From assembly GCA_026392115.1 (NCBI GenBank), contig JAPLCQ010000121.1:1-39624 (forward strand): a DNA stretch of 39,624 nucleotides, read 5' to 3'. Of the stretch, positions 3,398 to 15,700 are shown piece after piece. The translations under genes were made by a program, and so were the position numbers. This stretch comes from Armatimonadota bacterium (GTDB taxonomy: Bacteria > Armatimonadota > Chthonomonadetes > Chthonomonadales > CAJBBX01). Position 1 is the stretch's first letter. Every line of letters begins with the position of its first letter. The notes under the pieces were generated by a model that saw only the letters and a list, made by a program, of their open reading frames with translations, had not been told where the DNA came from and did not search any database.

Positions 3398-3800
3398 CGC
3401 GCCGCACTTCGGCCCTGAGGCGCAGCGAGGCCTCCATGCCGGCCTGAAGCAGAGGTACCCGAAGCTCGTACTCGCCATACTGGCCGCCCTTACGCAGATT
3501 GCCGACGAGAGAAGCGCCGCCGCCGTCCGACGACTGGTCGCTTCGACGAAAGACACGCAGGTGAGGGCGGCGGCTCTCGAGGCCTTGCCCGCCATCGAGG
3601 CCAGCGCCCTCCGGACTGCGCTGGCCGGCGTCCTCTTGCGCCCGGCGTCGGCGCCGGACGCCGATCTCCTGCTCCGTCCCGCAGGCATGGGCGCTGCTCA
3701 GACCCAGACCCTGGTTCGGCCCTCGGATGCGCCGGGTCAGGACGGAGATCACGAAGGGATGCCCGCCGGCCAGGGCGCGGCGCTGAGACCGGGGCCGTAG
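3384..3800 (+). CDS. HEAT-repeat protein with LLRPA tail, C-terminal portion (frameshifted)
   Basis: 138 residues in the frame next to the preceding entry; the first codon (GTG 3384) has no convincing ribosome binding site, which supports a broken single gene. HEAT helices (LVLAILAALTQIADERSAAA, VRRLVASTKDTQVRAAALEA) are followed by VLLRPA, LLLRPA and TLVRPS, the same kind of tail as in the gene at the left edge. The final residues (GAALRPGP, stop) are encoded inside the 51-bp repeat shared with the cinA 3' end, so the native C-terminus may have been replaced at the recombination joint. Confidence 0.55.
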   Translation: MRAHDAPHFGPEAQRGLHAGLKQRYPKLVLAILAALTQIADERSAAAVRRLVASTKDTQVRAAALEALPAIEASALRTALAGVLLRPASAPDADLLLRPAGMGAAQTQTLVRPSDAPGQDGDHEGMPAGQGAALRPGP

Positions 3801-3822
3801 GGGCGAAGCATCGGCCGCGCCC
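3772..3822. repeat. 51-bp direct repeat, copy 2
   Basis: 49/51 match to 2731-2781. It includes the stop codon of the HEAT/LLRPA reading frame and the hairpin GGGGCG...CGCCCC. Its right end (3815-3822) overlaps the left end of the 196-bp repeat described next, so the two repeat systems join here. Confidence 0.85.
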
Positions 3823-4010
3823 CCGCGTCGGCGGTCCGCGGCCGTCAGGGCTTCATGCCCTCCTTCATCAGCTTCCCTCCGAGCATGAGCTGCACGGTGG
3901 ACTTGGTCTGGACGCGGGGCAGCGGTTGACCCTCGGGGAGCGCCGCGCCGGGGCCGAAGCCCACCATCGTGCCGAAGACCATGTCGCAGTCGGCGAAGAT
4001 GTCGGCTGGC
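3815..4010 (-). pseudogene. 196-bp duplicate of the 3' end of the 390-residue secreted-protein gene
   Basis: Matches 10460-10655 at 194 of 196 positions (differences at 3926 and 4007). Read on the minus strand it encodes only the last ~55 residues of the gene at 10490-11662, including DIFADCDMVFGTMVGFGPG and the C-terminus KLMKEGMKP with its stop at 3845-3847. Beyond 4010 the similarity ends. It is a gene fragment, not a gene, and serves as the left direct repeat bracketing the 4.0-10.5 kb island. Confidence 0.9.
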
Positions 4011-4463: not shown

Positions 4464-4676
4464 ATGGATAACGCGTTGCCGAGCGACCGGGAGTTGGAGG
4501 TTCTGTCCGCCTATATGCGGTTCGGAAGTGTCAGCGCGACGGCCGCGTTCCTCTGCGTCTCGGTTGGCACCGTTAACTGCCATCTCGAACACCTGCGCGA
4601 AAAGGCCGGATTGGAGCACCGTGTGCAACTGGTCGTCCATGCCCTTCGGGTCGGCTGGGTGAACGGCACGCCTTGA
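4464..4676 (+). CDS. Small LuxR/GerE-type helix-turn-helix protein
   Basis: A 70-residue protein that is essentially one GerE HTH domain. It starts with LPSDRELEVLSAYMRFGSVS, followed by the recognition region SVGTVNCHLEHLREKAGLEH and a closing helix. There is no receiver or ligand-binding domain, so it is a stand-alone DNA-binding protein or the remnant of a larger regulator. ATG 4464 follows GGAG at 4454-4457. It is the first gene of the island and may control the genes that follow, though no operator is evident. Confidence 0.75.
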   Translation: MDNALPSDRELEVLSAYMRFGSVSATAAFLCVSVGTVNCHLEHLREKAGLEHRVQLVVHALRVGWVNGTP

Positions 4677-4826: not shown

Positions 4827-5531
4827 ATGCAGGACTCCGAGACGGCCCGGCTTGGCAGAGGGGACTGTGCCATCGTTGTCCTATTCGTGATGCTCACGGG
4901 CGTGTTTGCGGGAATGGCGGTAAGGCAGTACGGCTGGGCGCGGGAAACAAGGCGGCTTGCCGCCGTAGGTCGGTACAATGCCTGTCCGGCTGAGGTGATG
5001 GGCAACGAACCCCACATTCGTGGGTGGGCGGGGGCGCAGTTCACCCTGGTCGAGTTTGGCGACTACCAATGCGGGCCTTGCAGGGCGGCCGCGCCAAAGG
5101 TCAGAGCCCTCCTCCGACGACACGAGAGGGACCTGAGCTTCGTCTTCCGGGATCTACCGCTTACGAGTATTCACCCGCTCGCAATGAACGCGGCGGTGCT
5201 GGCAAACCGCGCCGGGAATGCGGTTGACTACTGGGCAACCCACGATCTCCTGTACTCGGACGGAATCGACGGAGCGCTGTTACGGAGGGCAGAGGCCAAC
5301 TTGGAGAAGACAGGCCGTCCCGCACTACCGGAGAGCGGTGCCACCGACCGGGTCAGCCAGTCGATCCGTGCCGCAAGATCGCTCGGGATCGGCGGGACGC
5401 CAGCATATGTGTTGCTCTGCCCCGGCAGCATCGTGCGCAGAGTGGGTGCGCTTGAGGATGTCGAGAATCTGCTTGCCGCGAGACCCGCGCCTCGGCTCGG
5501 CGTAGGACAGGACGAAGAGAACGCGCACTAG
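4827..5531 (+). CDS. Membrane-anchored DsbA-family thiol:disulfide oxidoreductase
   Basis: 234 residues. A hydrophobic N-terminal segment (about 14-32, CAIVVLFVMLTGVFAGMAV) should anchor or export it. The catalytic CGPC motif is at residues 82-85, after LVEFGDYQ, as in DsbA/thioredoxin-4 proteins. FVFRDLPL and the cis-proline loop GGTPAYV (Pro192) complete the fold. The likely role is forming or isomerising disulfides outside the cytoplasm. GGAGAG precedes the ATG. The next gene, 36 bases downstream, encodes a secreted protein with twelve cysteines, an obvious candidate substrate. No DsbB or VKOR partner is seen in the window. Confidence 0.82.
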   Translation: MQDSETARLGRGDCAIVVLFVMLTGVFAGMAVRQYGWARETRRLAAVGRYNACPAEVMGNEPHIRGWAGAQFTLVEFGDYQCGPCRAAAPKVRALLRRHERDLSFVFRDLPLTSIHPLAMNAAVLANRAGNAVDYWATHDLLYSDGIDGALLRRAEANLEKTGRPALPESGATDRVSQSIRAARSLGIGGTPAYVLLCPGSIVRRVGALEDVENLLAARPAPRLGVGQDEENAH

Positions 5532-5567
5532 AGCAGCGAGACCATCGGCAATAGGAGGGATACACAT

Positions 5568-6032
5568 TTGAAATATACAACAGCTACATCGCTATACGTA
5601 TCCGTCATGCTGGCGATATCGGTTGCTGCCTGGGCGGACGGATGCCTTACGGCCTATCCATCCCAAAGGGTCCCTGGCGGTCCAGGTGGCGCAATCCTGA
5701 CCGCGGCGCCTAATTGCTTCAGCGACACCTACTGCTCTCAACAGTTCTATGTACACTCGGCCATTGAATGCAGCAACGATTTATGTGTTCCGGGGCGATG
5801 CGCAGAGCCGGGGACGGGCCTCTGGTGTACCGGCAGCCAGTCGCCCTGGACTCAGAACCGATGGCAGACCCAGTCGTGGACTTTCAACTGCTACTACGTC
5901 GGCATTGGGGGGGAGTGCTGGAATGTGCCTTGGCACCCAGTGACCGACTGGGCGTGCATGCCGAACGGCTCGCAGACTGCCTACTGCTACACAGCTTGGT
6001 ACAACGACCCCGCCGGTCGCTGCTCGGAGTGA
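5568..6032 (+). CDS. Secreted cysteine-rich protein, unknown function
   Basis: 154 residues from TTG 5568, preceded by AGGAGGG at good spacing. The N-terminus is a classic signal peptide ending near AWADG. The mature part contains twelve cysteines, an even number compatible with six disulfides, and many Trp, Tyr, Pro and Gly residues. I recognise no domain. Its position directly after a DsbA-like gene suggests a disulfide-stabilised extracellular protein matured by that enzyme. Codon use is less GC-biased than in the surrounding chromosome, like the rest of the island. Confidence 0.7.
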   Translation: MKYTTATSLYVSVMLAISVAAWADGCLTAYPSQRVPGGPGGAILTAAPNCFSDTYCSQQFYVHSAIECSNDLCVPGRCAEPGTGLWCTGSQSPWTQNRWQTQSWTFNCYYVGIGGECWNVPWHPVTDWACMPNGSQTAYCYTAWYNDPAGRCSE

Positions 6033-6245: not shown

Positions 6246-7325
6246 ATGAGAGGGTCCGCAGTAGCCGTTGTGTGCGCGATCGGTGCGTTGCTGCCGGCCC
6301 CGGGGTTCGGTCAGCACCGGAGCATGGCCGTACCTCCAGCCCCCAGAATGCGCCGCCTTCAGCTCAGGCAGCCCTTCACGCTGGCTTACGGCGTGCGTGC
6401 CAGGGCTTTCCATGACGGCTCGTTCCATGCGTACCGTCTGCGCCTGACGCTTTCCTTTGATGGCAAGAGCCTGCTGTACCGGCGCGAGGACCTATCCACC
6501 GGGCGCACGGTCACGGAGTTGTTCGACGGAAGGGAGACCTACGAAGCCGAGACCGGTTCCCGGATCGCCATGATCCAACCCGGCTTCGATGTCCATCGCC
6601 TGTGGCTCTGTCCGCTCCCGGGTGTCGGCATCCCGTTTGCGCCCATGCTCACCCATGGCATCCCTTCGAAGCACCTGGCGGGCGTCGCGAAGGCGCTCGC
6701 CCCGCAACTGGCGACGGAAAGCAGGTATGTCTCGCCGTCCCTGTTCAACGCGCCAGGGCTGGAGCGCGAGTACGGCATGTGGGCCGACGACGGCATGGCG
6801 GCGCGCACCAGGGCCTGGAATCACGCCGCGTCTGTAGCCCTTGTCCCCACGCACGGCGCCCCGAAGGTGCTGTGGTACACGACCTTCGAGATACCTTCAC
6901 CGCATATTGGGTCCCTTTGGGAGTTCTTCAGTCACAAGCGGTTCTCCGGTGTCTGGCTGGCCACGAGTGCCAGGCTCCGTGGATACGGAGTCCGGACGGC
7001 CGCTGGTCCAACCGACCTCGTCCGAGAGGTGACATACGAGCTGGAGCATGCCGTCGAACGGCCACTCCAACCGAACGCCTACGACCCGGCCACGTACCTG
7101 TCAAGGCACGCGAACGTGACCGACGCGGCCGGAAGCGCCGTCCGGACCTTCCTGTACGAGCCTGGCCAGGGGCCGCTGCAAGAGCAGCGGAGCAGGGGAG
7201 TCGATGTCGCGAGCGAAGCCGCCAGGCGCGTCCGCCCCCCCATCAACACCGGTGTCGTCGGCCTCTGTGTCCTCGCGGTTCTCGCGGTAGTTTGGGGTGT
7301 CTGGCGGAAGAGGCAGACGCCTTGA
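6246..7325 (+). CDS. Exported protein with C-terminal membrane anchor, unknown function
   Basis: 359 residues. An N-terminal signal peptide (MRGSAVAVVCAIGALLPAPG) is followed by a large soluble region. A single hydrophobic segment near the C-terminus (VVGLCVLAVLAVVWGVW) ends in a basic tail (RKRQTP), the layout of a type I membrane protein facing out of the cytoplasm. The mid-region (LRLTLSFDGKSLLYRREDLSTGR) is beta-rich and reminiscent of outer-membrane lipoprotein carrier folds, but I cannot assign a family. GGAGG precedes ATG 6246. Its stop overlaps the start of the next gene (TTGA), so the pair is probably translationally coupled. Confidence 0.65.
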   Translation: MRGSAVAVVCAIGALLPAPGFGQHRSMAVPPAPRMRRLQLRQPFTLAYGVRARAFHDGSFHAYRLRLTLSFDGKSLLYRREDLSTGRTVTELFDGRETYEAETGSRIAMIQPGFDVHRLWLCPLPGVGIPFAPMLTHGIPSKHLAGVAKALAPQLATESRYVSPSLFNAPGLEREYGMWADDGMAARTRAWNHAASVALVPTHGAPKVLWYTTFEIPSPHIGSLWEFFSHKRFSGVWLATSARLRGYGVRTAAGPTDLVREVTYELEHAVERPLQPNAYDPATYLSRHANVTDAAGSAVRTFLYEPGQGPLQEQRSRGVDVASEAARRVRPPINTGVVGLCVLAVLAVVWGVWRKRQTP

Positions 7326-8659
7326 GCGGCGTTCTGTCCACCGATCTGAGACAGACCGGCGCCGCGTTCGCATCGGGTACGGGTGAAGCGCATCATGGCC
7401 CTGGTCGTCACCTCGCCCCAAAGCTTGTTCGGTTCGGTCGAACGGCGGTCAGCGCGGTCGTTGTGCTACTGATCTTTCGAGCTTACCTGGCGCCGAACAC
7501 GGTCCCGCGGTGGCTCGACCAGTGGCGCGACGTTCATCTTCACTACTTCGGCCTCGGGGGCGCCCGCGGCGCTGGCGCAGCCGCGCTCGCCCTGGCCACG
7601 CTGGCCTTTGGGTCCTACTACCCGATCTCGTCCAGACGACAGGGCCCGTTCGGCCTCTGGCTGGCAACCGGCGCGTGGCTGAGCCTGACCGCGGCGGTCA
7701 TCCTGGCGCCGTCTTCACCCGATTCGGTGGTGCTTCGGGAGGGCTGCCTTCTTCTGGGCTATGCGTGCGGTCTCGCCGCCGCCCGTCTCTTGCCCCGCAT
7801 CGAGGGCTACCTCCTAGCGTTGGTCGCGTGCGGGCTGCTCCAAAGCGTCATCGCGATCACCTATCGGATTATGGGGTTGGACCGGTTCGTGTCCGGCGAC
7901 GTGATCCGTGCCGGCGGGTCGTTCGGAACACCCGCTATGCTCTTCCTGGTGCCCGTGTTCGTCCTGCCGCTCGCGGTTCAGGGCGTCTTGGCGGCGCCCA
8001 CGACGGGTGCAAGGACGTTCACGATGGTCGCCACTGCGGCCCTGCTGGCGGCGTTGATGCTCACGTGGGAGCGCTCCGGCGTGGCCGCCGGCCTGGCGGC
8101 CATGCTGTGGCTCGTGAGCAGGCGTGTGCCGGCCCGTCGCCGTTGGGTGGGTTGGATCATGGCCCTCGGTGTGCTACTCGTCGTGTTCCTCGTGCGAGGT
8201 ACCGGCCCGGTCAATGCCGCCTCCTCGGCTCGATCAGTTAAGGGCCGCGCCGAGCTCATGAAGGCCGGCGCCCTGGCGTTTGGTCACCACTGGTTTGAAG
8301 GCGTCGGCGTGGGCCGACTGTCCCTTCCAGTACAGATCGAGATAGCCGGAAGGCCAACCAACGTCTCGCTGATTGACCCACACAACCAAGCCCTGTTCTG
8401 GCTTGCCGAAATGGGCATCGTAGGCGCGTTGCTGATCGCGGGTTTGGCCTGGTTCGTGTGCCGGACGTTGCGAGACTCGCAGTCGCCATGGGCTGACGGC
8501 GTCGCCGCCGTCTGGGTCTCTGTTGCCTGCGCCGGCATGTTCAACACCCTCTTCGGCCTCAGCGACTTCAGTTGCGGCAATATGCTCATCGGGTCTCTGC
8601 TTGGTCTCACTATGAGGGTGGGCGCCGCCTGTGATGAGCCGAGACAGACCACAACCTGA
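7322..8659 (+). CDS. O-antigen ligase/polymerase (Wzy/WaaL-like) membrane protein
   Basis: 445 residues from TTG 7322, which overlaps the preceding TGA and has GGAAGAGG upstream. The protein has about ten hydrophobic segments. A periplasmic loop carries the signature DPHNQALFWLAEMGIVGALL (His354), matching the HN...L...E.G..G motif of the Wzy_C/O-antigen ligase superfamily. Such proteins polymerise or ligate undecaprenyl-linked glycans on the outer face of the inner membrane, and some members transfer glycan to pilin. The neighbouring pseudopilin makes pilin glycosylation a possible role, but that is inference. An earlier start in the same frame would overlap the whole upstream gene and is rejected. 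Confidence 0.78.
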   Translation: MSGVLSTDLRQTGAAFASGTGEAHHGPGRHLAPKLVRFGRTAVSAVVVLLIFRAYLAPNTVPRWLDQWRDVHLHYFGLGGARGAGAAALALATLAFGSYYPISSRRQGPFGLWLATGAWLSLTAAVILAPSSPDSVVLREGCLLLGYACGLAAARLLPRIEGYLLALVACGLLQSVIAITYRIMGLDRFVSGDVIRAGGSFGTPAMLFLVPVFVLPLAVQGVLAAPTTGARTFTMVATAALLAALMLTWERSGVAAGLAAMLWLVSRRVPARRRWVGWIMALGVLLVVFLVRGTGPVNAASSARSVKGRAELMKAGALAFGHHWFEGVGVGRLSLPVQIEIAGRPTNVSLIDPHNQALFWLAEMGIVGALLIAGLAWFVCRTLRDSQSPWADGVAAVWVSVACAGMFNTLFGLSDFSCGNMLIGSLLGLTMRVGAACDEPRQTTT

Positions 8660-9629
8660 CCCGCCTCGGGCGGACGCAGGAACGGCGACGCGACACGGCC
8701 CGTCACGTCAGCGCCACATTGGCCGCACCGTCGGCGTTGGCGCGACCGCGGCGGGCGTCATATGGCAGGCAGGGGCGTGGGCTCTGTGGCCGATCGATGC
8801 GCCATTCCCCTACACGGCTCTGGTCCCGTTGCTCGGTGTCACCATCACGACCGGCTGTGTCCTCCGCCTGGTTCGTCCACAGCGGCAGTCAGGTCGCGCC
8901 TGCCGGTCCCGGCGGGCGAGGCGCCCGCTTACGCTGATCGTCTTGGCGGTTGTTGCCGCGGCTGGATGCGGTGGAGCGTACGCGGTTGTCCGACGGCGTG
9001 TCCTGGCATGCCGAGACGCGGTCGCAGGACCGGGGTGGGTTCAGTTGTCGGAGGTGTCGGCGCCCATGCTCGACAGCATTGTCGCGAGCGAGGACCGCCA
9101 CTACTACCGGCATTCCGGCGTCGACTGGGTGGCCCTCCATCGCGCCATCCGGTTTAATATCCAGGCGGGCTCCTTCCGTCGCGGCGGCTCGACGATCACC
9201 ATGCAGGCGACGCGCTGCGAGTTCCTGACCAGGGACCGGACCGTCTGGCGCAAGCTGTGTGAGGTACCGCTCGCGCTCTGTGTGGATCATCTACTGACCA
9301 AGGAGGAGGTACTCGTGCTCTACCTGGGTCATACCGACTTCGGCCTGGGCGCGATGGGTGTCCGCGATGCGGCGCGCACCTACTTCGGCAAGAAGGCGAT
9401 CAACCTCACTCTGTCGGAGGCGGCATTTCTCGCATCTCTGCCGCCCCGTCCGCCCAGGGCCGTGCCGGAGGTGACGCACAGGCTCGTCGATGCCTGTCGC
9501 TCTCGGGCGCTCGCCCGCTTGCGGCGCTACCGTCCGTCTCGGTACTCCGAAGCCGAGCTTGAACGGGCTCGCCTCGCGGAACTCACATTCGCTTGGGAGC
9601 GGAACGATGCCCGCCCTGCCAACGACTAG
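8634..9629 (+). CDS. Monofunctional GT51 peptidoglycan transglycosylase-like protein
   Basis: About 331 residues. Two hydrophobic N-terminal segments precede a GT51 domain with all the usual motifs: SEDRHYYRHSGVD (catalytic Glu at about 153), GGSTITMQ (about 184-191), RKLCEVPLAL and LLTKEEVLVLYLGHTDFG. No transpeptidase domain follows, so it resembles MtgA-type enzymes that polymerise lipid II into glycan strands. The loop carries Cys and Gly-His where YLN is usual, a divergence that may alter activity. It overlaps the upstream gene by 26 bases and the next by 23, consistent with one operon. A GTG one codon upstream (8631) is an alternative start. Confidence 0.82.
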   Translation: MSRDRPQPDPPRADAGTATRHGPSRQRHIGRTVGVGATAAGVIWQAGAWALWPIDAPFPYTALVPLLGVTITTGCVLRLVRPQRQSGRACRSRRARRPLTLIVLAVVAAAGCGGAYAVVRRRVLACRDAVAGPGWVQLSEVSAPMLDSIVASEDRHYYRHSGVDWVALHRAIRFNIQAGSFRRGGSTITMQATRCEFLTRDRTVWRKLCEVPLALCVDHLLTKEEVLVLYLGHTDFGLGAMGVRDAARTYFGKKAINLTLSEAAFLASLPPRPPRAVPEVTHRLVDACRSRALARLRRYRPSRYSEAELERARLAELTFAWERNDARPAND

Positions 9630-10459: not shown

Positions 10460-10655
10460 CCGCGCCCCCGCGTCGGCGGTCCGCGGCCGTCAGGGCTTCA
10501 TGCCCTCCTTCATCAGCTTCCCTCCGAGCATGAGCTGCACGGTGGACTTGGTCTGGACGCGGGGCAGCGGCTGACCCTCGGGGAGCGCCGCGCCGGGGCC
10601 GAAGCCCACCATCGTGCCGAAGACCATGTCGCAGTCGGCGAAGATGTCGGCCGGC
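10460..10655. repeat. 196-bp direct repeat, right copy
   Basis: The intact-gene copy of the sequence at 3815-4010 (194/196 identical). It spans the last 55-56 codons and the first 30 bases after the stop of the minus-strand gene at 10490-11662. The island lies between the two copies; the distance between equivalent positions is 6645 bases. Confidence 0.9.
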
Positions 10656-11662
10656 ACGGTGACGTCCACGCGGTCCGGCGCCATCATGGAGGTCTCCTTC
10701 ACGCCCTTGATGACATCGGCCATCTGCATGTAGTCCACCATGTTGCCGGGCGCGGTCTTGATCTCCGAAGAGCTCCAGATGATGAGGATGTTCTTGCCCT
10801 GGATACCCATGACCTGCATGTGGTAGCCGAGGACGTTGGGCACGGCCTTCCAGCGGAACCCCAGCGCGGCCGTCAGGTCGGGCAGTTCGGCGAGGTCCGG
10901 TGCGCTGAACTCGATGGGGTCCAGGAAGTTCACCTTGGCCGGCACATCGATCTCGACGTTGCCGGTGTAGGTGCTTGCCAGGGCGTAGCGGCCCTCCAGC
11001 TCGGCGCCCTTGGCGATCCCCGCCGGCGCCTTGCCCGCGGGCCAGTAGCCGGTGGTCCAGTCGGGCTTGTAGAAGTAGGAGCGGGCCGCGTTGGGCTGCC
11101 GGGCCTGCTCTCGGAAGGCGGCCTTTTGCTCGGCGGTGAGACCGTCGAACGTGATGACCTCGGGCTGGCCGGGCTTCACGGTGGGCGACGAGCCCCAGTA
11201 GCGCTTGATGGTGAAGCTCGCCGCCATGCCGCCCGGCGTTTCGCCTCCGCCGCCGGCCGACTCCTCGGGCTTCGGGCGGTAGAGCGCCAGGTCGAGCTTC
11301 TTGCCCAGCTTCAGGCCCGCCGGCACCGCGAGAGCCGCCGTCGCTTCGGCTGGCGCCAGGCCCGGCGACCAGAGGCGGACCTCCAGCTTGCGCTGCGGCT
11401 TGCCGGGGATCATCATGCCCGCGGGCGCCCCGCCGCCGGGCAGCTTGAGCCCTCCCGGCAGCTTCACGCCATCCGGCAGCTTAAGGTCGGAGAGGTCAGG
11501 CAACTCCGGCATGTCGGGGATTTCGGGCATGGCCGGCATGCCCGCCATCTTCATCACGGAGGTCTCCGCGAAGATGCCCAGAAACGACTGGTCGGCGCCT
11601 CGGGACGGCTGGTTGGCGGGCGAGATCAGCGCGAGGGCGAGGATCGGTGCGAGAGGGTTCAT
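10490..11662 (-). CDS. Secreted protein with Met/Pro/Leu-rich low-complexity N-terminus, unknown function
   Basis: 390 residues from the ATG at 11662, chosen because AAGGATCAAAGG lies immediately upstream and a signal peptide begins there (MNPLAPILALALISPANQPS). Residues about 38-80 are a low-complexity run of repeated short units (PEIPDMPELPDL, then KLPDGVKLPGGLKLPGGG). The remainder is beta-rich with motifs such as GFRWKAVPNVLGYHMQVMG, resembling secreted carbohydrate- or protein-interaction domains, but I recognise no family. Its last ~55 codons are duplicated at 3815-4010, so this gene's 3' end marks the right border of the island. Confidence 0.72.
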   Translation of the reverse strand: MNPLAPILALALISPANQPSRGADQSFLGIFAETSVMKMAGMPAMPEIPDMPELPDLSDLKLPDGVKLPGGLKLPGGGAPAGMMIPGKPQRKLEVRLWSPGLAPAEATAALAVPAGLKLGKKLDLALYRPKPEESAGGGGETPGGMAASFTIKRYWGSSPTVKPGQPEVITFDGLTAEQKAAFREQARQPNAARSYFYKPDWTTGYWPAGKAPAGIAKGAELEGRYALASTYTGNVEIDVPAKVNFLDPIEFSAPDLAELPDLTAALGFRWKAVPNVLGYHMQVMGIQGKNILIIWSSSEIKTAPGNMVDYMQMADVIKGVKETSMMAPDRVDVTVPADIFADCDMVFGTMVGFGPGAALPEGQPLPRVQTKSTVQLMLGGKLMKEGMKP

Positions 11663-11770
11663 CCTTTGATCCTTTCGTGGGGCCGCACACGTTCGAGCAA
11701 GGGCCACAAGGGTCCCATACGCGGCGCGCGCAAGCGTCGTTCGGCGCCTTGGTGCGGCGCGGCGATCCTG

Positions 11771-11878
11771 GGGCGGTCCGTGGACCTGGTCAGCCGGGCA
11801 GGGCTGGAGCAGAGCTGCAACGCCATCGTCCGCGGCGAGGTTCTCGGCACGTCCAGGGTGGTCTATGCGCAGCAGTGA
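11771..11878 (+). pseudogene. C-terminal remnant of an MntA-type nucleotidyltransferase (antitoxin)
   Basis: The frame reads GRSVDLVSRAGLEQS, then EVLGTSRVVYAQQ and a stop, which looks like the end of minimal nucleotidyltransferases (MNT) normally paired with HepT. No GSxARG or DxD catalytic region is found upstream: the frame there turns into unrelated sequence and then meets the divergent gene starting at 11662. It overlaps the hepT-like start by 14 bases, as intact mntA-hepT pairs often do. Confidence 0.6.
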
Positions 11879-12224
11879 CGCGTTCCTGCTGGACATCGTC
11901 GAGGCGTCGGCGCGCATGGCCGACTACACCGCCGGTATGTCCCGCGCCGAATTCATGGCCGACAGGAAGACGCAGGCCGCGGTTGTCCGGGTGATTGAGA
12001 TCATCGGCGAGGCATCGCGCCAGTTGCCTGAACCCTCCAAGCTGGCCAACCCCGACATTCCCTGGCGAGACCTGGCGCGGTTGCGCAACATGTACATCCA
12101 CGCCTACCACGGCATCGACTACGGCCTCGTGTGGCAGACGGCCGTCCGGACCGTGCCCCCGATCGCGGCAGCCGTGCGCGCCCTGCTCCCTGCCGTTGCC
12201 GATGCTGCCGGGGACGAGGCGTAA
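11865..12224 (+). CDS. HepT-like (DUF86) toxin-family protein
   Basis: 119 residues, the normal length of a HepT/DUF86 protein. The N-terminal helices (DAFLLDIVEASARM, QAAVVRVIEIIGEASRQLP) and the RX4HXY motif (Arg74, His79, Tyr81 in RNMYIHAY) are intact. HepT proteins are HEPN-fold RNases or AMPylation targets, silenced by an adjacent MNT nucleotidyltransferase that modifies the motif tyrosine. Here the partner survives only as a 36-residue tail, so the toxin would be orphaned, inactive, or controlled from elsewhere. Confidence 0.82.
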   Translation: MRSSDAFLLDIVEASARMADYTAGMSRAEFMADRKTQAAVVRVIEIIGEASRQLPEPSKLANPDIPWRDLARLRNMYIHAYHGIDYGLVWQTAVRTVPPIAAAVRALLPAVADAAGDEA

Positions 12225-12227
12225 CCA

Positions 12228-12636
12228 CCCGGGCAAGCCACCGCTGCGACTGAGCCGGGGTCCTTCACTGCGTTCAGGACGACCATCAAGGGCAACCGCC
12301 GACCCAAACCGTCGGTCGCCGTCCAGTCGCCGCAGGGCGACTTCCCGCCGTTCGTTGCGGCGGTTTCAACCGCCCGGGCAAGCCACCGCTGCGACTGAGC
12401 CGGGGTCCTTCACTGCGTTCAGGACGACCATCAAGGGCAACCGCCGACCCCAACCGTAGGTCGCCGTCCAGTCGCCGAAGGGCGACTTCCCGCCGTTCGT
12501 TGCAGCGGTTTCAACCGCCCGGGCAAGCCACGTTCAGGACGACCATCAAGGGCAACCGCCGACCCAAACCGTCGGTCGCCGTCCAGTCGCCGCAGGGCGA
12601 CTTCCCGCCGTTCGTTGCGGCGGTTTCAACCGCCCG
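12228..12636. repeat. Three tandem copies of a 145-bp structured repeat
   Basis: Units begin with CCCGGGCAAGCC at 12228, 12373 and 12518, a period of 145 bases. The third unit lacks about 30 bases after its start. Each contains a 62-bp core (12315-12376, 12460-12521, 12575-12636) with two perfect hairpins: GTCGCC, a GCAG or GAAG loop, GGCGAC; and GCGGTT, TC, AACCGC. The core recurs at 36265-36326 and, truncated, at 36578-36617. There is no spacer diversity, so it is not a CRISPR. The 477 bases from 12225 to 12701 hold this array and no credible gene. Confidence 0.9.
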
Positions 12637-12701
12637 CACCCCGGTCGTCCCATCCGCCGGCGTTCGCAGGATATCGGGGCCATGGGGGCGAACGTTGAGT
12701 T

Positions 12702-15700
12702 ATGCGAGAGGCGCTTTGGGGTAAACCGAAGATCAGGCGCGTTGTGGGAGGTTTGGCGGCCCTGATGGGGTTGTCGGCGGGCCTTGCGCCGCTGGGGATG
12801 CCCGCGCTGGACCCCGCCCGGCCCGGATGGGTCGCCACGCCTCCCTCCTATGTGCGCGGGGCGACCTTCCAGGCGACCCTGACCGCCACCCGCGCCCGCC
12901 TGCTGGCGAGCCGTTACCCGGCGCCCGGCGACGATGCCGGTGCGCTCTGGGCCAAGCTGGATCGCGACTTCCCCACGCCGTCCGACTGGATGCTGCAGGA
13001 CGCGGGCGTGGGGCGCGACGCCTGGTTCGGGGCCGCTCCGCCCGTGGGCCTGCTGCGCGACGCCACGCGGCGGGCCTGCGCCGAGCTGGGCCCCGCCGGT
13101 GCGCCGTTCCGGTCGCGGCTGGATGCGCTGGAGGCCGGCAGCGCCGCCGCCGACGACGCGCGGAGGCTGGACCTCTACGTCGCGGCCTGCCGGGCCAGGC
13201 GCGCCCGGCGGCTGGGGCTGCTCCTCCGCAAGGCGCCGCGCATCGTCTTCGCGAAGCACTTCAACATGGGCGGCTCCCACTACGCCTACACCGAAGGCCA
13301 GAGCGACGCCCAGAACGAGCGCCACTTCTACCCCGGCGCCGCCCTCTGTCGGCTCGATATGCAGGGCGCCGAGGGGCGTGTCACCACGCTCGTCGACGAC
13401 CCGAACGGCGTCATCCGCGACCCCAACGTCCACTGGGACGGCCGCAAGGTGGCCTTCGCCTGGAAGAGGTCCGACCTGCGGGACGACTACCACCTCTACG
13501 AGATCGACGCGCTGGGCGGCAAGCCGCGGCAGCTCACGCGGGGCCTCGGCTTCGCAGACTACGAGCCCGCCTACCTGCCCAACGGCGACCTGGTCTTCAG
13601 CTCCACCCGCTGCGTGCAGACGGTGGACTGCTGGTGGACCGAGGTGGCCAACCTCTACAGCTGCGCTCCGGACGGGAGCCGGATTCGGCGGCTGGGGTTC
13701 GACCAGGTCCATACCAACTACCCGCAGGTGCTGGACGACGGCACGGTCACCTATACGCGCTGGGAGTACAACGACCGGGGGCAGCTCTTCGTGCAGAGCC
13801 TCTTCCAGATGCGCCCGGACGGCTCCGGCCAGACCGAACGCTACGGCAACAACTCCTGGTTCCCCACCAGCCTGCTCCACGCGCGGGGCGTGCCGGGGAC
13901 GGGCAAGGTGATGGCCGTGGCGTCGGGGCACCACTCCTCGCAGGCGGGCAAGCTCTGCGTGGTGGATGCGCGGCTGGGCAGCCAGGAGAACCAGGGCGTG
14001 CGGCTGGTGGCCCCGCGCCGCGCCACGCCCGCCGAGCGCATCGACTCCTACGGCCAGACGGGCGACCAGTGGATGTATCCCTACCCGCTCAGCGACCGCG
14101 AGCTGATCGTCTCCTTCTGGCCCGATGACGGCCACCGGACGGGGCGCGGCACCTTCGACGGCCACTACTCCATCTTCTGGATGGACGTGGACGGCCGGCG
14201 CGAGCTGCTCGCCTCGGACCCGGAGCGCTCCTGCCACAACCCCTCGCCGCTGATGCCGGTCAAGGCGCCGCCCTCGACCCCGCGCCCGGCCGTCGAGCCG
14301 CCGGAGACGGGCAGCTACTACGTGCAGGATGTCTACGCGGGTCCGGCCATGGCCGGGGTAGCCCGCGGCTCTGCGGCGGCGCTGCGGGTCGTGGCGCTGG
14401 ACTTTCGTGCGGCCGGAGTGCGCGCCAACGGCAACGCGGGTCCGGCGGGCGGCGCGCTGGTGAGCACGCCCATCGCCATCGGCAACGGCGCCTGGGACCC
14501 GAAGATCGTGCTGGGCGAGGCGGCCATCCAGCCCGACGGCTCGGCCTACTTCACCGCCCCCGCCCGCACGCCGCTCTACTTCCAGGTCGTCGACCGCCAC
14601 GGCAAGGTGATCCAGACCATGCGCTCCTGGTCGGCCCTGCAGGGCGGCGAGCGCGCCTCCTGCACCGGTTGCCACGAGCCGAAGAGCGCCGCACCGCCCG
14701 CCACGCGGTCCACCCTGGCCCTCCGCGCCGGCCCGCAGCCGCTGGTTCTGCCCGGCGGCGGGGCGGGCGGCTACAGCTTCCGCAGGCGCGTGCAGCCGAT
14801 CCTGGACAAACACTGCATCGGCTGCCACCGCGACCCGGCCCTCCTCCCGCCGGGCGTGCAGTCGGCCCCGCACGCGGACCTGAGCCGCGCGGCGGTCCTC
14901 TCGCCCGAGGGCGCCGTCTGGCGATGGACCACGGAGCGTCCCGCCGACGGCTGGGAGCGGCCGGGGTTCGACGACGCGCGCTGGGCCGAGGCGCGCGCCG
15001 CCTTCGGCAACACGGGCTTCGGCGTCCGCACGCCGTGGGAGACCGAGCAGATCTGGCTCCGCCGCACCTTTACGCTGGACGCTCCGCCCACCGGCAAGGA
15101 GTTGGTCCTCAACGTCTTCCACGACGAGGACGTGGAGATCACCCTGAACGGCGTGCCTGCGGCCGAGGCGCAGGGATTCGTGGTCGCCATGAAGCAGGTA
15201 CCGGTGAGCGCCGCCGCCTCGCGGGCGCTGCACGCGGGCGTCAACACGCTGGCGGTCCACTGCCGCCAGACCGCCGGAGGCCAGGGCGTCGAGATGGGGC
15301 TCTACGCCCTCGATCTCCCCGCCGGCGCCGCGCCGGGGCCGCACCGCGCCTTCAGCCTGCGGGGAACGCCGCGGCGGGATGTCACGGCCGGCCGCATCTG
15401 GAGCGAGGCCTACCTGGCCCTGACGGCATCGGCGCCGGACCAGAGGAACGGCGAGTTCGGGGGCGCCATGCTGGGGCGCTCCGGCGGGCCGGTGAACTGG
15501 GTGAGCCCGCAGTCGACGCCGCCCATCCAGCCCGCCTACGCCGCCGGGTCGGCCCGCAGCGGCCTCATGCGCCTGCTGGAGCAGGGCCACGGCGGAACGC
15601 GCCTCAGCGCCGCCGAGCTACGCGAGATCGCCTGCTGGATCGACCTGGCCGTGCCCTTCTGCGGCGACTACATCGAGGCCAACTGCTGGACGCCCGAGGA

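Follow-up and report, generated by a model that had tools for sequence, protein, structure and literature searches.

A DsbA-like oxidoreductase and a twelve-cysteine exported protein as a probable oxidative-folding pair in a repeat-bounded, envelope-type operon of Armatimonadota

When a gene for a DsbA-like oxidoreductase is closely followed by a gene for a small exported protein with an even number of cysteines, the question arises of whether the two products are an enzyme and its client. Such a pair occurs in a stretch of 39,624 nucleotides from an Armatimonadota bacterium (hereafter the window), which forms contig C87 in a draft genome of 5.72 Mb and 98.6% completeness. A sequence-only reading of the window had proposed the enzyme–client relation and had left the small protein as possibly structural, toxin-like or bacteriocin-like.

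The first gene is what that reading had taken it to be, a DsbA-like enzyme with a CGPC motif and a cis-proline, and its coordinates were right. Its product of 234 residues passes the cut-offs of two Pfam models, scoring 34 bits both with PF01323 (25.6 required) and with PF13462 (23.2 required), with CGPC at residues 82–85 and the cis-proline in the context GIGGTP. The hydrophobic anchor at the N-terminus gives the protein a membrane-tethered appearance, while CGPC alone does not decide whether it would act as an oxidase or otherwise. Among solved structures, the nearest matches to the DsbA profile included 3gyk and 3eu3 (the latter at E 3.5e-8); the closest structures are taken here to be Com1-like (3gyk), ScsC-like and BdbD (3eu3). 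The genome also has a generic VKOR-DsbA pair elsewhere, at C104, and the window gene is therefore an extra copy.

The spacing of 36 bases reported for the pair was confirmed (5532–5567), and the second gene opens with a TTG codon behind an AGGAGG sequence. It encodes 154 residues, beginning with a hydrophobic signal sequence and continuing in a mature part of 131 residues; all twelve cysteines (residues 26, 50, 56, 68, 73, 78, 87, 108, 117, 130, 140 and 152) follow the signal, and the protein has eight tryptophans. The absence of a recognisable domain also held up: no Pfam model matched any of the four members of the family at E ≤ 10, no NCBIfam model matched the window protein at E ≤ 1, and a search of the PDB returned no relative (best E 0.69, chance-like). 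The AlphaFold model has a mean pLDDT of 30.3, too low for a pairing of the cysteines to be read from it. No relative of the locus was found in the viral contigs searched or in 72,556 plasmid records, and a phage or plasmid origin was accordingly dropped.

Homologues of the cysteine protein are few. In a sample of 61 genomes, convincing ones occurred only in the genome of the window itself (G000), in G001, a second species, and in G009 and G011, and a profile search of 291 Armatimonadota genomes found the protein in the same four. Weaker matches in the 61-genome sample (18 of 22 genomes, E 0.003–0.1) were set aside as chance-like, the profile search having retained only four genomes. The sequence-only reading had named homologues that always lack a DsbA-like neighbour as evidence against the pairing; in all four genomes dsbA lies directly upstream. 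All twelve cysteines are invariant, and the gap is 35 bp in both G009 and G011, where the protein is only 50–61% identical to that of the window. Clearly, the conservation of the cysteines and of the gap at this level of identity argues that the reading frame is not a chance one. A frameshift lies in the signal region of the G011 gene and an internal TAG in the P3 gene of G009 (P3 being the gene that follows the cysteine gene), and in both cases error and decay are indistinguishable. Both cysteine-rich genes of G011 (L022, about 13500–13900, and L003, 1440–1520) look frame-broken at the signal region; the G011 breaks may be assembly error or on/off variation. The sister genome G002 gave no match to the cysteine protein and none to full-length P3.

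The pair merely opens a longer operon of envelope type, which goes beyond the two genes of the sequence-only reading (Table 1). The order is dsbA, the cysteine gene, P3, an O-antigen-ligase-like gene, a peptidoglycan transglycosylase and a DUF1559 prepilin, and G009 and G011 share it; in the first cluster of each, an ECF-sigma-like gene replaces the HTH regulator (by eye), and the ECF gene of a third G009 cluster matches Sigma70_r4_2 at 3.5e-9. P3 has no Pfam match, and its AlphaFold model has a pLDDT of 35.8. Its C-terminus (7226–7322) consists of a P-[IV]-N-T-G motif, a hydrophobic helix and a basic tail, an arrangement that presumably resembles a sortase-type sorting signal. The N-terminal methylation motif of the prepilin scores 18.9 bits with TIGR02532 (cut-off 16.3), and PF07963 stays below its cut-off in the window (18.0 against 21.2) and exceeds it in G141 and G154.

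Table 1. Features of the operon and its surroundings in the window
Feature	Position	Strand	Basis
Left copy of 196-bp direct repeat	3815..4010	.	194/196 identical to 10460-10655, sharp ends
Short LuxR-type HTH regulator	4464..4676	+	PF00196 E 3.9e-7
dsbA: membrane-anchored DsbA/Thioredoxin_4 oxidoreductase, CGPC, cis-Pro	4827..5531	+	PF01323, PF13462 over cut-off; tree
Ribosome-binding site AGGAGG of cysteine gene	5553..5558	+	Read from sequence
cys12: exported protein, 12 Cys in mature part, TTG start	5568..6032	+	ORF reading; Cys invariant in homologues
P3: exported, C-terminal membrane helix, basic tail	6246..7325	+	No Pfam; homologue comparison
Wzy_C membrane protein resembling O-antigen ligases; start tentative	7391..8659	+	PF04932 5.6e-15
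Monofunctional peptidoglycan transglycosylase	8631..9629	+	PF00912 7.6e-45
DUF1559/type IV prepilin-like protein, Cys-rich loop	9607..10356	+	PF07596 2.7e-10; TIGR02532 over cut-off
Right copy of 196-bp direct repeat	10460..10655	.	Repeat comparison
Block near-identical to G001:C17	3503..10676	.	7174 bp with 2 substitutions and a single gap of 18 bp

The operon occupies a 6.6-kb unit between two direct repeats of 196 bp. The repeat corresponds to the 3′-terminal part of the gene at 10490–11917, duplicated in the left copy, and homologous recombination between the copies would excise exactly this operon. No integrase was recognised between them, either in the list of reading frames or among the seven genes scanned with Pfam. 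The flanks of the block shared with G001 are 86–98% identical in 250-bp steps, and the near-identity of the operon beside flanks that differ by 2–14% points to a recently transferred cassette. Because the flanks agree in both genomes, the exchange may have run through them; an assembly chimera is also possible, both genomes being drafts and at least G001 a MAG. In G002, matches to the window end near 2718 and resume near 12646 on another contig, with only two 53-bp pieces between (12232–12429). Tandem repeats of 145 nt (12223–12627) and a dispersed 58-nt repeat (2724–2781 and 3765–3822) lie next to the island.

Related clusters occur in other Armatimonadota, with the same kinds of partner genes around other cysteine-rich proteins, which are referred to here as cargos and have 8–12 cysteines. 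In G025, from another family of the order, the genes run dsbA, cysteine gene, P3, Wzy_C, a DUF1573-like gene (just below cut-off), transglycosylase and prepilin. Identity to the window is 35% for DsbA, 33% for Wzy_C, 59% for the start of the prepilin and 24% over 103 residues for P3, whereas the G025 cargo, with ten cysteines after the signal, gave no tblastn match to that of the window. G007 combines a MauE-like gene (26.9 bits, against a cut-off of 27) with a CSPC DsbA, a 12-cysteine protein related to the G025 cargo (blastp 5.6e-14) and a P3 that appears truncated by eye. A second cluster of G009 consists of MauE (PF07291, 2e-15), a reading frame with nine cysteines (eight after the signal) and a P3-like gene, and the third (L078) of ECF, an 8-cysteine gene, P3-like and Wzy_C genes and no DsbA. 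G112 has one cluster of cysteine gene, P3-like gene and DsbA and, close by, another in which a MauE-DsbA fusion lies 14 bp before a cysteine gene, followed by P3-like and Wzy_C genes.

By blastp, the P3 of the window is linked to that of the third G009 cluster (5.6e-9), and the P3 of G006 to those of G025 (3.3e-9) and the second G112 cluster (G112b, 1.4e-5). P3-like domains also occur in one chain with a domain of thioredoxin or TlpA/AhpC-like type (L140, 979–2586; L144, 565–2337), and these fusions tie P3 to thiol chemistry. In a second cluster type, read in L114, L118, L119, L123 and L128, a cysteine gene of 80–100 codons is followed by a HEAT-like or similar small protein, a prepilin and DsbA; Pfam or NCBIfam checks covered proteins of L118, L114 and L128, and the cysteine gene of L114 (G015) contains X at two places. 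L023 has a small 13-cysteine protein with a twin-arginine-like start (5060–5521), whose gene neighbours are an ECF and a DUF1559 gene. A shared cargo superfamily is not claimed: hhalign compared the window type with the G007/G025 type at E 0.0012 and a probability of 20% and found nothing between the window type and the 8-cysteine type, and a profile of the latter retrieved just its own four seeds from the 291 genomes. The cluster seems to be accessory, recurring and movable, with a cargo whose sequence varies while the partner genes persist.

How regularly the two kinds of gene occur together was approached from both sides. Starting from DsbA, 11 of 20 loci have a small, exported, cysteine-rich reading frame in the same orientation no more than 2.5 kb away, whereas the opposite strand gives 0 of 20 and a set of control stretches 3 of 28; the 11/20 is biased upward, since the loci were hand-picked, for the most part among the higher-ranking DsbA matches, after such reading frames had already been flagged. 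The nine without one comprise three generic DsbAs (L121, L122, L129), three loci truncated at contig ends (L113, L117, L125) and three whose neighbours are HEAT-like and prepilin genes (L115, L120, L126). A search with a P3 profile, independent of DsbA, yielded 17 loci in 15 of the 291 genomes, and in 11 of them a cysteine-rich exported gene lies directly upstream of P3 by eye (G000 and G001, which are the same cluster, G009 twice, G011, G025, G112 twice, G141, G113 and G154; the six without are G006, G002, G075, G127, G055 and G073). Seven of these 11 clusters have an adjacent DsbA with an intact CXXC, which in one G112 cluster follows P3; three have a DsbA-like neighbour without it (G141, CPYS, profile E 0.0016; G154, CPYT, 6.9e-15; G113, none, 7.1e-7), and one, the third G009 cluster, has no DsbA. 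The neighbours without CXXC suggest that the DsbA-like protein is possibly also a binding chaperone. DsbA-like genes that adjoin cysteine genes and no longer encode the full pair of active-site cysteines, with one or both missing, lie at L137 (39–782), L138 (15–716) and L141 (47–631).

The phylogeny of the enzyme points the same way. In a tree of 43 DsbA rows, three of them long-branched, the 20 generic DsbAs are gathered in a single clade (97/94; 98% of bootstrap trees) and all 23 cluster-linked rows fall outside it, a result that supports the generic grouping and not a single clade of cluster-linked DsbAs. The cargos themselves tend to have even cysteine numbers, as would be expected if every cysteine were paired. 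By a mechanical rule, 17 of 21 cargos have an even number beyond the signal core (p 0.0036 if independent, related cargos being treated as such), among them all 11 from P3-type clusters; a stricter cleavage rule, with two proteins left unscored and placed among the non-even ones, gives 15 of 21 (p 0.039).

On balance, dsbA and the cysteine gene probably encode a dedicated periplasmic oxidative-folding pair within an operon for surface biogenesis. The relation of enzyme and client put forward by the sequence-only reading is well supported genetically, by the linkage in all four genomes, the tree, the joint absence of both genes from G006 and the cysteine-rich neighbours of other DsbAs; the disulfides and the activity are predictions.

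One alternative is that DsbA serves the prepilin of the operon and that the cysteine protein is a mere neighbour, by analogy with Bacillus, where BdbD and BdbC introduce disulfides into the pseudopilin ComGC (PMC8262900). The operon resembles the Bacillus subtilis system in its extracytoplasmic DsbA-type oxidase, its prepilin and the profile match to 3eu3. Moreover, the window prepilin has ten cysteines, counted from residue 5 on, and an unusual cysteine-rich loop, and DsbA and prepilin adjoin in the second cluster type, including the three loci with HEAT-like and prepilin neighbours and no cysteine gene. Against this stands G006, where P3, wzy, the transglycosylase gene and the prepilin persist although dsbA and the cysteine gene are both gone; furthermore, in the window and in G009, G011, G007 and G025 the neighbour of dsbA is the cysteine gene and not the prepilin, and the MauE-DsbA fusion of G112 abuts a cysteine gene. 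Unlike in the Bacillus system, the proposed client is a separate 12-cysteine protein, with Wzy_C, a transglycosylase and P3 added, and unlike in a competence pilus, no pilus assembly ATPase, platform protein or prepilin peptidase was recognised among the seven operon genes scanned with Pfam. The prepilin as sole client would therefore seem unlikely; as a second client of DsbA beside the cysteine protein, it is possible.

It is also conceivable that the cysteine protein is a secreted antimicrobial, bacteriocin-like or RiPP-like precursor matured by DsbA or MauE, being small, exported, cysteine-rich and variable and lying on a mobile unit. Candidate RiPP clusters with mauE/mauD, detected in Streptomyces with decRiPPter, offer a parallel, in that a MauE homologue adjoins a small protein with at least eight cysteines (PMC7794033). 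They belong to another phylum, however, and their small proteins were interpreted as RiPP precursors, whereas the present cargos are exported, with Sec-type signals, and lie in an envelope operon. Among the seven operon genes scanned, none matched an ABC exporter, an immunity gene or a RiPP or other peptide-modifying enzyme; a transglycosylase, a ligase and a prepilin are present instead, and for a RiPP, a mature product of 131 residues behind a Sec-type signal is large. Such a precursor is thus rather improbable, the toxin- or bacteriocin-like option of the sequence-only reading found no backing in the operon, and a structural or surface role is the likelier fit.

The β-subunit of methylamine dehydrogenase (MADH) is about 131 residues long, and a third alternative is that the cysteine protein is an enzyme subunit of this kind, bearing a protein-derived quinone. 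With its twelve cysteines, mature part of 131 residues, eight tryptophans and a MauE beside sister clusters (just below cut-off in G007), the exported protein and its redox helper do resemble MauD/MauE and the MADH small subunit. The β-subunit carries six disulfides (PMC7876137), and maturation of such a six-disulfide subunit with MauE is already known (PMC7794033, PMC7876137). Unlike MADH, however, the window cargo is unrelated in sequence and is not PF02975, since no Pfam model matched it at E ≤ 10; no MADH chain was among the PDB matches, the operon proteins scanned include no heavy-chain (mauB), MauG-like or other mau product, and the cysteine number differs between 8 and 12 among cargos. 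This identity was rejected as very improbable. Mere coincidence, although L078 retains a cysteine gene without DsbA and DsbA-like genes without CXXC exist, is scarcely credible given adjacency in 4/4 homologues with a conserved gap and 11/20 DsbA loci against 0/20 on the opposite strand.

For the preferred reading of a dedicated folding pair, the protein families and the gene order suggest the following course. The cysteine protein would leave the cytoplasm by Sec and be oxidised by the membrane-anchored DsbA, with six disulfides if all cysteines pair; the enzyme would in turn be reoxidised by the VKOR of the genome, or by MauE in other clusters. The disulfide-stapled protein might then be passed to membrane-anchored P3 and end at the cell surface, alongside the prepilin-like protein, the sugar-ligase-like protein and a transglycosylase that would build wall locally, and the whole cluster would move between species as one unit. 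The ligase-like gene close to the prepilin recalls the pilin O-glycan ligases (TfpM/PEP_O_lig_1). Unlike these, the G025 protein matched TIGR03097 and NF058641 only weakly (34.2 against 188.1 and 20.8 against 600 bits), and the window protein gave no NCBIfam match at E ≤ 0.01, including to the models of TfpM and PEP_O_lig_1. More tentatively, and with considerable doubt, the clusters could represent an undescribed surface-display system of Armatimonadota, in which a fast-changing, disulfide-stapled cargo would be oxidised by a DsbA or MauE-DsbA fusion of its own, accepted by the P3 anchor, given a glycan tag by the Wzy_C ligase and shown with a prepilin fibre through a locally remodelled wall, with lineages exchanging the cargo and keeping the machinery. 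Literature searches on cysteine-rich proteins and DsbA in Armatimonadota, DUF1559 and dedicated DsbA-like enzymes did not find the cluster, although a description under another name or in a subscription journal could have escaped them.

Pairs of a thiol oxidase and its client have so far been known singly. Here, a cluster recurs across a little-studied phylum, bringing along a particular kind of DsbA and a changing cysteine-rich cargo, and the set of clusters offers natural material on the question of how oxidases that are related to one another serve disulfide folds that are not. In addition, orphan exported proteins of Armatimonadota gain a testable context, that of a probable surface structure encoded on a cassette that passes between species.
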